A DNA stretch of 64,000 nt from Balneolaceae bacterium (GTDB lineage: Bacteria > Bacteroidota > Rhodothermia > Balneolales > Balneolaceae). Under the pieces are notes generated by a model. The model was not told where the DNA came from. It did no database searches and worked only from the letters and a program-made list of their open reading frames with translations. Both the position numbers and the translations under genes were made by a program. Shown here piece after piece: positions 28,963-33,302 of this stretch; positions within the stretch are counted from its first letter, which is position 1, and the number at the start of each line of letters is the position of its first letter. The stretch is from positions 62,001-126,000 of the forward strand of contig JAXHMM010000005.1 of NCBI GenBank assembly GCA_034521445.1. The letters run 5' to 3'.

Positions 28963-29430
28963 TCACCAGAGCCGCTCCATCTGGTCGGGATCGCCGGGAA
29001 AGCCGGCGGGTACGGCTTCCTCCTTGCCTTCGGTACGGGATTCGGGAAGCTGCTGATTCCTTTTTTCTGGCCGCCCGTCATCCTTTTCCGGGCTCCGGCC
29101 GTTTCCAGGGCCGGTATCCCCGCTGCGGCCGGCCTGCGTGGGAGGCGGCGAGGTGGCGTATCGGGCCGGGCGGAGCCGTTCGATGTCGGAGAGGGAAATG
29201 GCGTCGGGTCGGTCGGAAAGACTGAGCGCACCCAGGTGGTAGGCACCCTCCTGCAGAAGGATCTTCGCGGTGCGAATGGGTCCGCGTACCTCGGCGCCGC
29301 TAAGGATCGTGACCTTGCGGGCAGCCTCCACCTCGCCACGCACATGGCCCTCCACCACCACTTCGTCAGGCGAGGAGATGGATCCCTTGAATGAGGTGTG
29401 TTTGTCGAAATAGGTGCAGTCTTCCTTCAC
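28963..29430 (-). CDS. bactofilin-family polymer-forming protein
   Basis: A 155-residue protein with a short bactofilin (DUF583) core: SFKGSISSPDEVVVEG, then HVRGEVEAARKVTIL and GPIRTAKILLQEGAY, repeats that build a right-handed beta helix (about residues 10-75). Bactofilins form filaments at the inner membrane and scaffold cell-wall enzymes. The C-terminal half (80-155) is disordered, rich in Pro, Gly, Lys and Glu. The core is shorter than usual, so it may cap or modify filaments. It follows the actin-like gene by 99 bp, apparently as a two-gene unit. Confidence 0.85.
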   Translation of the reverse strand: MKEDCTYFDKHTSFKGSISSPDEVVVEGHVRGEVEAARKVTILSGAEVRGPIRTAKILLQEGAYHLGALSLSDRPDAISLSDIERLRPARYATSPPPTQAGRSGDTGPGNGRSPEKDDGRPEKRNQQLPESRTEGKEEAVPAGFPGDPDQMERLW

Positions 29431-29529: not shown

Positions 29530-30555
29530 TCAGGGCTGCTGGTTCATCGCGCAGACCAGGGTATTTGCGTTGCCCATGTCAATTCCGATGGGAACGCCCT
29601 GATCGATCTGCCGCGAGGTATTGATGCAGTATCCGTTGACGGCCATTTTCTCAGGCTCGTCTGTAATCTGAACGTTGAGGATGCCTTCGAACTGCGAGGA
29701 GATTTGGCTGGTAAGCTCGTTGAAATAGGCCCCGCCTCCCACGATGTACATCTTCGAGCAGTCCTCGAAGTCGGAGTCCTCGAAGGCGTTGGCCACGGCC
29801 GGGCGCACGATGTTCTCGTAATAGGACTTCAGTACGCGCTGGCGCAGGGCGGTCAGGTCGACCATACGCTTGTTGATGTTGATGCGCCCGTTCTGGAAGG
29901 CGTTGTTGAGCTGGTGCTCAGTCTTGAAACCAAGGTAGTGGTTTTTCTGGAGCTCCTCCTTCATCATGTTGATGGCGTAGCGCAGACCCCGCGCGCTGGT
30001 TGCCGTCCGGCGGATGATGCCGTTGGGGGTGCTGAGCACGCCCTCCATGGACCCGTAGCCGAGACTTAGGATAAAGAAGTTGTTCTTTTCGGCCACCGGG
30101 CCGTGGCGCAGGGCGATGATGCCGCCCGCCACTTCAGGAATGACATAGACGTTATCAACGTTTACTGTCACCACCTGACGGCCCATGCCGTCGCCCCTCT
30201 TGAAGGTGGAACTGTCGTAGGAAATGTCGTAGGAGCGGGTCAGCTTCTGCTTGGCCGAATCCTTGTGCAGCTGGAACATTTCGAAGGGGAATCCCATTGT
30301 AAAGGAAAAATTGCTGCCCGCCTTGCTCTGGGCAACCAGCAGGGCGGCCCGGAGCATGACCTCAAAGTCAAGTTCGCCGGGTGCGCAGTTGATGAGCCGG
30401 TGAGGGGACAGCCCTTCCTTGAGGGCCAAGTTTCCGACCATATAGGACTCTTCCTGGTACTCGATCTTGAGTCCGTCCAGAAGGGTGTTGCTTACCCCGT
30501 TCAGCTGTGCCCTGGTTGACTCAAATACACTGGGAAACGAAGAAATATCTACCAT
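29530..30555 (-). CDS. actin-like (ParM/ALP-type) protein, apparently circularly permuted
   Basis: A 341-residue protein of the actin/ParM/Ta0583-like family. Family blocks in order: FPSVF (7-11), YMVGNLAL (38-45), FTMGFPFEMFQ (85-95), VYVIPEVAGGIIAL (136-149), the phosphate-2 region FILSLGYGSMEGVL (161-174), the adenosine loop MYIVGGGAYF (269-278) and MAVNGYC (304-310). The phosphate-1 hairpin, normally at the N-terminus before FPS, is instead at the very end: IGIDMGNANTLV (323-334), seven residues from the stop. The phosphate-2 aspartate is replaced by Ser164. No frameshift explains this: upstream is an AT-rich intergenic region. It likely forms nucleotide-dependent filaments with the bactofilin. 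Confidence 0.85.
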   Translation of the reverse strand: MVDISSFPSVFESTRAQLNGVSNTLLDGLKIEYQEESYMVGNLALKEGLSPHRLINCAPGELDFEVMLRAALLVAQSKAGSNFSFTMGFPFEMFQLHKDSAKQKLTRSYDISYDSSTFKRGDGMGRQVVTVNVDNVYVIPEVAGGIIALRHGPVAEKNNFFILSLGYGSMEGVLSTPNGIIRRTATSARGLRYAINMMKEELQKNHYLGFKTEHQLNNAFQNGRININKRMVDLTALRQRVLKSYYENIVRPAVANAFEDSDFEDCSKMYIVGGGAYFNELTSQISSQFEGILNVQITDEPEKMAVNGYCINTSRQIDQGVPIGIDMGNANTLVCAMNQQP

Positions 30556-32110: not shown

Positions 32111-32695
32111 CTAGCTCCGTACGAAGTCCTCAAGGAACCCGTAGTCATGGTTATCCGCGGCCCTTAAGGCACGAATGTAGCGCTTTCGCACTTCTCCCGG
32201 ACCATCCAGGTTGCCCGATCCCCAGGAAAAGGGACTGAGGCCCCACCACCGCTCAAGTATGTGATCGGATACGAGCCGTGCATGTCGCCCATTGCCGTTC
32301 GGAAAGGCATGGATGTAAACCAGCCTGTGATGAAAACATACGACTATTTTATCCGGCCTGAAGGATTCATGCTCTTTCCAGTAGGCCAGGTCATCCAATA
32401 GTTCTCGCAGCGCTACAGGAATTTGAGGCCAATCTATGCCAATATTCTTGTTGCTTCGGCGATAGTTTCCTGCCCAATCCCACACCTTGCCAAACATTTT
32501 CCGGTGCAGCGTGCGCAAAAAATTTTCATCCAGCTCCGCTGGTCCACGCTTCCTAGACAGCCAACGATGTGCTTCCAGAATATTCCTGTGTTCCCAGATG
32601 TTCAGCTCCTCACGTGTTGTGATATGCGATAACCTGAGTCTTTCCTTTTCGTCAGGCTCAAGCGGTGTTGCCCCGTCAGGATGTTCTGTCCCCAT
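32111..32695 (-). CDS. Fic-family protein, 'mobile mystery protein B'
   Basis: A 194-residue Fic-domain protein. The full catalytic motif HAFPNGNGRHAR is at 129-140, fitting HxFx(D/N)GNGRxxR, so AMP-transfer activity is plausible. The N-terminal part (LNIWEHRNILEAHRWLSRKR) and GNYRRSNKNIG are typical of the mobile mystery protein B group, which always pairs with an HTH partner (A). I do not see a clear inhibitory (S/T)xxxE(G/N) helix. It starts immediately after the partner's stop codon. Local GC is lower than in flanking genes, suggesting transfer. Confidence 0.88.
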   Translation of the reverse strand: MGTEHPDGATPLEPDEKERLRLSHITTREELNIWEHRNILEAHRWLSRKRGPAELDENFLRTLHRKMFGKVWDWAGNYRRSNKNIGIDWPQIPVALRELLDDLAYWKEHESFRPDKIVVCFHHRLVYIHAFPNGNGRHARLVSDHILERWWGLSPFSWGSGNLDGPGEVRKRYIRALRAADNHDYGFLEDFVRS

Positions 32696-33160
32696 TTATT
32701 CGCTCCAAAAGGTAGCAGGCTCTTCCACCAGGATCTGGTCAATGTGATCCTTCAACGCCCTTTCCAGCTCATCATCACCCAGACCTTGTTCCTCCAACTT
32801 CATGGAGTGGTCCGTCCTGTTCATGCGTTTCAAGGCGATCTTTCTGGCTTGCTCGCGAACCAGATCTTCCAGCGTGGATTTCGGTACAAAACCGTAGACA
32901 AAGGTTACCCCCAGAGCATCCGCAATTTTCTCCAGCGTCGATATCTTAATTTCTCGCCTGGCTTCGGCCGATTCTATGCGCGATATCCTTGACTGGTCAA
33001 GGTCAGCGCGATCCGCCAGATCGTAGGTAGACATGCCAAGACTTTCACGTATGGTTTTGATCCAGCCTCTTTCTGGCACTGGAAGCTGCAGTAACGGCTT
33101 CAACTTTTTCAACTTCTGATCCAGCTGTTCACGGATAAGCTTTTTGTCCCAATAATCCAT
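32696..33160 (-). CDS. XRE-family HTH protein, 'mobile mystery protein A'
   Basis: A 154-residue DNA-binding protein with a Cro/CI-type helix-turn-helix (MSTYDLADRADLDQSRISRI, residues 43-62). GWIKTIRESLGMS before it and VTFVYGFVP after it are hallmarks of mobile mystery protein A. It probably represses its own operon and may act as antitoxin or immunity partner for the Fic protein, whose ATG abuts its stop. The frame runs open to 33265, but the upstream residues are AT-rich non-coding sequence; the ATG at 33160 is the natural start. Confidence 0.85.
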   Translation of the reverse strand: MDYWDKKLIREQLDQKLKKLKPLLQLPVPERGWIKTIRESLGMSTYDLADRADLDQSRISRIESAEARREIKISTLEKIADALGVTFVYGFVPKSTLEDLVREQARKIALKRMNRTDHSMKLEEQGLGDDELERALKDHIDQILVEEPATFWSE

Positions 33161-33302
33161 AAAGATGATATATCTACCATTGTTTTTATATTTATTAATG
33201 ATAAATATAACATTAATATATGAAATTTCAATGATATTTATAGCATTATCAGAGGACGTCTGCACCAGAGCTTATTAAAGGAGGGGGTACTATGCCCACA
33301 AT

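Follow-up and report, generated by a model that had tools for sequence, protein, structure and literature searches.

Background

Dh-cParM1 (8x1i) is a chromosome-encoded ParM (PMC12270681). In this protein, as in the pCBH ParM of Clostridium botulinum (6ixw, 6izr), the phosphate-1 (P1) motif stands at the N-terminus. FcmB of Nostoc, also a bacterial actin near the ParM group, is reported to act in cell morphology (mSphere 2025, PMC12645912) and provides a precedent for a ParM-like actin moved to that role; the FcmB paper mentions neither permutation nor bactofilin (PMC12645912). The protein described here is encoded in a window of 64,000 nucleotides (the whole stretch of DNA analyzed) from a Balneolaceae bacterium. 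Like Dh-cParM1 it is chromosomal and has, by prediction, the actin fold. This fold is already known, whereas a circularly permuted natural actin, which the protein almost certainly represents, appears to be new: no described natural permutation of actin was found in the open literature, subscription papers and preprints lying mostly outside the search.

The gene and its motifs

The gene occupies 29530..30555 and is read from the minus strand, with its ATG at 30555 and its stop codon at 29530. It encodes 341 amino acids; its description as a circularly permuted actin-like protein draws on the translation, Pfam, 88 relatives and AlphaFold2. The protein starts with MVDISSFPSVF and ends with VPIGIDMGNANTLVCAMNQQP. 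Its new N-terminus (residues 1-12; 30520..30555, minus strand), defined by structural alignment and conservation, contains strand E2-8 with the FPSV block, of which P8 and S9 are invariant (33 members). The P1 motif IGIDMGNANTLV is found at residues 323-334 (29554..29589, minus strand), recognized by conservation, by the model strands and by a HMMER match to BiP, and the GIDMGN near the C-terminus is the sole P1-like motif in the protein. The ORF translation thus bears out the preliminary description, which placed the start at FPSVF and this motif seven residues ahead of the stop. That description did not mention the strand, the bactofilin downstream or the altered phosphate-2 (P2) motif.

In the alignment of the 88 relatives, a linker region (residues 310-322; 29590..29628, minus strand) connects the invariant G308-Y309 to the P1 hairpin, and a helix, H301-316 in the AlphaFold2 model, lies ahead of it. 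The spacing from Y309 to G324 is 14-16 residues in 86 of the 88 aligned sequences and 34-36 in the other two. The two sequences with the long linker are apparently L033 and L035, both from Bacteroidales.

Conservation of the order among relatives

Among 92 genomes searched within the same family, 12 others gave a match, and eleven of the matches are near-full and 37-70% identical to the window protein; apart from one whose start is lost to a contig end and one small fragment, these matches start at the FPSV strand and stop a few residues past the P1 motif. A contig scan of one genome per species across bacteria and archaea yielded no relatives with a single-sequence query and 80 loci when the first alignment was used as the query. 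These loci include isolates (Fodinibius, Belliella, Lunatimonas, Cyclobacterium and Chitinophaga) and metagenome-assembled genomes (MAGs) of Bacteroidales, Balneolales and Ignavibacteriaceae, and the permuted order is common to all of them, barring one whose start is missing because the contig ends there.

The 88 distinct full-length relatives, which are 34-70% identical to the window protein, come from Balneolaceae, Cyclobacteriaceae, Chitinophagaceae, Odoribacteraceae and one Ignavibacteriaceae MAG. All 88 have P1 at the C-terminus, with G324, D326, G328 and N329 invariant, and none has an N-terminal P1 motif (GxDxG). The orthologues therefore share the order, as the preliminary description had asked to be checked, and the extra N-terminal motif or upstream P1 that it named as contrary evidence is absent: when the 600 bases upstream were read in all three forward frames, neither the window nor the 80 loci showed a P1-like motif.

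An artefact was considered as well, in which a truncated or frameshifted gene, a misassembly or a chance motif would have produced the permuted order. It is ruled out for all practical purposes by the conservation in 88 of 88 relatives and by the empty upstream frames, and the same order recurs in isolates (Fodinibius, Belliella, Cyclobacterium and Chitinophaga) as well as in MAGs. Because the order is the same in 80 loci and in 11 genomes of the same family, with an invariant P1, neither sequencing error nor chance can account for it.

Profile searches with natural and rotated sequences

In its natural order, the window protein matches the Pfam profile ALP_N with residues 6-144 on profile positions 20-148 (36.6 bits; cut-off, 26.3), and the missing N-terminal part of the profile is the usual site of the P1 hairpin. 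This match from position 20 agrees with the earlier claim that the blocks follow the order of actin-like proteins such as Ta0583 and ParM, minus the N-terminal P1. When the last 20 residues were moved to the front, the score rose from 36.6 to 46.0 bits and profile positions 1-148 were covered; with a shuffled 20-residue segment at the front it was 36.3 bits, that is, without gain. The Ignavibacteriaceae member rose from 54.1 to 66.0 bits on rotation.

PHROG 691, a profile independent of Pfam ALP_N, responded in the same way: rotation raised the window protein from 65.1 to 74.7 bits (65.3 with the shuffled segment), the Ignavibacteriaceae member from 86.2 to 98.9, and a Chitinophaga member from 81.3 to 83.7, and it brought a Lunatimonas member, unmatched in its natural order, to 75.0. 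The member L084 showed no PHROG gain on rotation, because neither its natural nor its rotated order matched. When 27 residues were moved in a Chitinophaga sequence whose tail is longer, the ALP_N match disappeared, probably because the longer tail lengthens the join; a sister of this sequence, of which a 20-residue segment was moved, showed a slight PHROG gain.

The permuted order is also recovered unaided in the HMMER match to BiP, in which the natural sequence aligns in three blocks: residues 317-339 with 23-45 of BiP, 98-179 with 151-240, and 252-289 with 340-379. Bt ParM and MreB are both matched by the rotated profile in collinear fashion, and in Bt ParM the match spans the join without a gap. 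Against the PDB, rotation raised the MreB structure 7zpt from 23.1 to 24.6 bits and brought a Bt ParM fusion from unlisted to 31.8 bits, gains that are modest overall and are taken as supporting evidence only. Counted by hand, 23 residues lie from the P1 Asp (D326) through the join to P8, compared with 23 in Bt ParM and 20 in MreB. As for the MreB profiles of Pfam, residues 185-278 of the window protein match MreB-like_C with 25.8 bits, below the cut-off of 27.8, and a Chitinophaga member reaches 31.4 bits, above it; MreB_Mbl gives 15.0 bits with the window protein, under its cut-off of 27, and 28.1 bits with one relative in natural order.

Predicted structure

AlphaFold2, supplied with 33 relatives, gave a confident actin fold (pLDDT 93.6, pTM 0.91), with C-terminal strands at E322-327 and E331-337. 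Dh-cParM1 (8x1i) is the best match to solved structures (VIA), with a Z of 27.7 and an rmsd of 2.9 over 300 aligned residues; it is followed in the list by pCBH ParM, CorM and Ta0583, and then by Alp7A, BeeR, Hsp70, actin and MreB. The matches to actin, MreB and Hsp70 have Z values over 20. The structure prediction that the preliminary description called for thus yielded the actin fold, with model residues 1-320 aligned to ParM and Ta0583.

In all 50 structural matches listed, the model is aligned from residue 1-2 to about 316-322, and the partner starts just past its own P1 hairpin, at residue 18-24 in Ta0583, MreB, actin and most ParMs and at about 60 in CorM and BeeR, in the latter two because of N-terminal extensions. 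In ParM, Ta0583, MreB, actin and Hsp70, the part aligned with the new N-terminus begins at about residues 18-32, and the first AlphaFold2 model gave the same picture. The structural aligner preserves chain order, and the pieces left over are the hairpin of the partner and the tail of the model, as a permutation requires.

In short, the invariant order, the profile matches restored by rotation and the limits of the AlphaFold2 alignments together support a natural circular permutation of the actin fold, and we regard this conclusion as nearly certain. The preliminary description had proposed exactly this from the window, and it is now backed by the order in 88 of 88 relatives, by two profile libraries and by the AlphaFold2 model.

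Judging from the confidence of the model, the C-terminal P1 hairpin very probably lies in cis in the usual N-terminal slot, and we infer that D326 faces the phosphates. A hairpin at the end of a chain is the kind of element that is able to swap, and it might instead be inserted into the neighboring subunit, giving nucleotide sites made of two chains and a filament held together by strand exchange. The hairpin does sit on a linker of 14-16 residues, with 34-36 in two members; however, the common linker is short, and the hairpin strands are confident in a single-chain AlphaFold2 model (pLDDT 94 for residues 321-330 and 88 for 331-340), so that we consider such a swap rather improbable. A mean-field coupling analysis of the hairpin contacts comprised 88 sequences with an effective number of 32.5, too low in diversity to be informative.

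Active site

By alignment, D326 corresponds to the P1 Asp and G273-275 to the adenosine motif; both are invariant in the 88 sequences, and the GGG (29731..29739, minus strand) is aligned with the GGG of MreB. Equally invariant is E141 (30133..30135, minus strand), which by alignment is the counterpart of Q137 of actin and is aligned with the E of 'RIINEPTAAAIAY' in BiP. The P2 loop, S164-L-G-Y-G-S-M-E171 (30043..30066, minus strand), has in the alignment of 88 a Ser in place of the canonical Asp: position 164, which is aligned to the P2 Asp of BiP, pCBH ParM, Bt ParM and MreB, is Ser in 85 sequences, Gly in two and Asn in one, and never Asp. E171 of the same loop is invariant in the 88. The P2 Asp is thus replaced family-wide, while the other catalytic positions are invariant.

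Judging from these residues, the permuted actin is very likely to bind nucleotide. In actin, D154, the residue that matches the P2 Asp, takes part in metal coordination (PMC3510490); slower hydrolysis or different metal binding may therefore follow from the change of Asp to Ser. The family may accordingly hydrolyze slowly or bind metal in an altered manner, and with the P2 Asp lost, ATP hydrolysis could be absent.

These features bear on whether the protein polymerizes. It might be a non-polymerizing, nucleotide-bound switch or an adaptor for bactofilin, comparable to Arp4, an actin-related protein for which ATP has been proposed to be structural (PMC3510490). The replacement of the P2 Asp in 88 of 88 sequences and the close bactofilin neighborhood would fit such a switch, but the invariant P1 Asp, E141, E171 and GGG fit a retained nucleotide chemistry, and filament formers (pCBH ParM, CorM and BeeR) are among the closest folds. 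A switch of this kind therefore seems doubtful, though it is the alternative to be taken most seriously. The permuted protein probably polymerizes into filaments.

Bactofilin neighborhood

The next gene downstream, on the same strand (28963..29430, minus strand), encodes a bactofilin of 155 amino acids, which matches PF04519 with 38.9 bits (cut-off, 27.9) on profile positions 38-96 of 98. A profile derived from unambiguous examples recognized, directly or closely downstream of the permuted actin, a bactofilin gene of the same orientation in 71 of the 80 loci (69 in the search window and two with the start called slightly further upstream). In ten of ten loci tested with Pfam, the downstream bactofilin was confirmed above the PF04519 cut-off. 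The sample of 80 loci is heavy in Chitinophaga, and the link is found also in Balneolaceae, Cyclobacteriaceae and Ignavibacteriaceae. The bactofilins of the window, limited to profile positions 38-96, and of the Fodinibius-type loci tested, with the first third missing, are short; those of the other groups have the full domain.

Nine of the 80 loci, some of them at contig ends, have no downstream bactofilin. Conversely, the bactofilin is kept in locus L142 (G015), where the actin is reduced to a weak 26-residue remnant (about 1948-2013; E 0.03), so that the permuted actin can be lost and, in at least one genome, the bactofilin does without it. The flanks of L142 are the same, an ornithine-type aminotransferase and a sodium/solute symporter. 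In locus L092 (7039-8573), the permuted actin and the bactofilin are separated by a 377-residue protein that we take by eye to be TPR-like, and what look like ATP synthase genes follow this stretch. Elsewhere in the window (32111-33265, minus strand), an XRE-type regulator is followed by a presumed Fic-like protein containing the motif HAFPNGNGR; to the eye, the two resemble the 'mobile mystery protein' A/B pair.

The genome that contains the window also encodes a separate MreB (C5:254763; 462.8 bits) and two further genes with the actin fold, whose sizes would suit Hsp70 and FtsA; at another place it has a second bactofilin, this one full.

The best profiles are ParM/ALP and PHROG 691, 'partition protein', which might suggest a DNA partition protein of the ParM type whose termini have been altered. 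However, no relative was found by tblastn in 72,556 plasmids, 50,697 phages or 2.9 million viral contigs, nor did a rotated and a native member have any tblastn match among the plasmids; moreover, the next gene in 71 of 80 loci is a bactofilin rather than an evident ParR. A role in DNA partition is thus very improbable.

Distribution and origin

The nearest named relatives of the host are Fodinibius and Aliifodinibius. In Bacteroidota (in the GTDB sense), the permuted actin was found in 24 of 395 genomes, at full length save for one fragment at a contig end. Among 296 genomes of the phylum, all 12 ALP_N matches begin at profile positions 16-21, so that no cousin in canonical order was found there as a parent. 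In the gene tree, the Chitinophagaceae are grouped (100/100), as are the window protein and Fodinibius (100/100), and the Balneolaceae are placed in two spots; together with the distribution, this indicates that the permutation is older than the spread of the family. Two genomes (G220 and G261; loci L114, L115, L117 and L118) have two permuted actin paralogues each, on separate branches of the tree. Circular permutations usually arise by duplication of a gene and subsequent trimming of both ends. No duplicated or partly trimmed intermediate of the permuted actin was found.

Putative function

The best explanation as a whole, which we consider reasonably likely, is a chromosomal actin of the ParM/Ta0583 (ALP) group, permuted, nucleotide-binding and probably filament-forming, that goes with a bactofilin. 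Strand three of subdomain IA would open the chain, and strands one and two, together with the P1 loop, would close it at the C-terminus, after the last helix and a short linker. The C-terminal hairpin would return in cis to the slot normally filled by the N-terminus and bring D326 to the phosphates; ATP or a similar nucleotide would then be bound, and polymerization would follow. With Ser at P2, altered hydrolysis or metal binding might let the filaments last longer. From the gene order, it seems fairly likely that actin and bactofilin have a joint putative function; the two genes are probably co-transcribed, and their products would work as a cytoskeletal pair located at the cell envelope and not in DNA partition.

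A more elaborate version, which we rate as a long shot, makes the P1 hairpin a C-terminal plug exchanged between subunits, such that polymerization would complete the nucleotide site. If true, the exchanged plug and the P2 Ser would give a slow, long-lived filament for co-assembly with bactofilin.

Since the P1 hairpin has changed to the C-terminus and has stayed in that place throughout the family, in Bacteroidota and related lineages alike, the actin fold evidently tolerates new termini. The family therefore makes it possible to ask, on evolutionary evidence, which connections of the chain are important for nucleotide switching and for polymerization. The conserved pairing of the permuted actin with bactofilin suggests a cytoskeleton of two components, so far unstudied, in a large group of bacteria of which some can be cultured (for example Chitinophaga and Cyclobacterium). 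Such actins will be overlooked or wrongly assessed wherever annotation depends on finding P1 at the N-terminus.

Comparison with known actin-like proteins

The pCBH ParM shares the actin fold with the permuted family (Z 26.6, rmsd 2.8, 295 aligned residues), and 6ixw is matched by the profile with 38.0 bits. In both pCBH ParM and Dh-cParM1 the match starts at residues 21-23, past the N-terminal P1, whereas the permuted family has P1 at the C-terminus and a bactofilin as its neighbor; pCBH ParM, moreover, has the P2 Asp where the permuted family has Ser. Ta0583, the archaeal actin homologue (2fsj, 2fsk, 2fsn), resembles the family in the order of its blocks and in its fold (Z 25.4, rmsd 2.6, 287 residues aligned from residue 19), but its P1 is N-terminal and it is not permuted. 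CorM of Anabaena (9rmi), another bacterial actin near the ParM group (Z 25.4), has the canonical order and is matched from its own residue 60 on. MreB likewise shares the actin fold (Z 21.1, rmsd 3.0) and has a Glu at the position of E171; however, its P1 is at the N-terminus, and it is present as a separate protein in the very genome that encodes the permuted actin.
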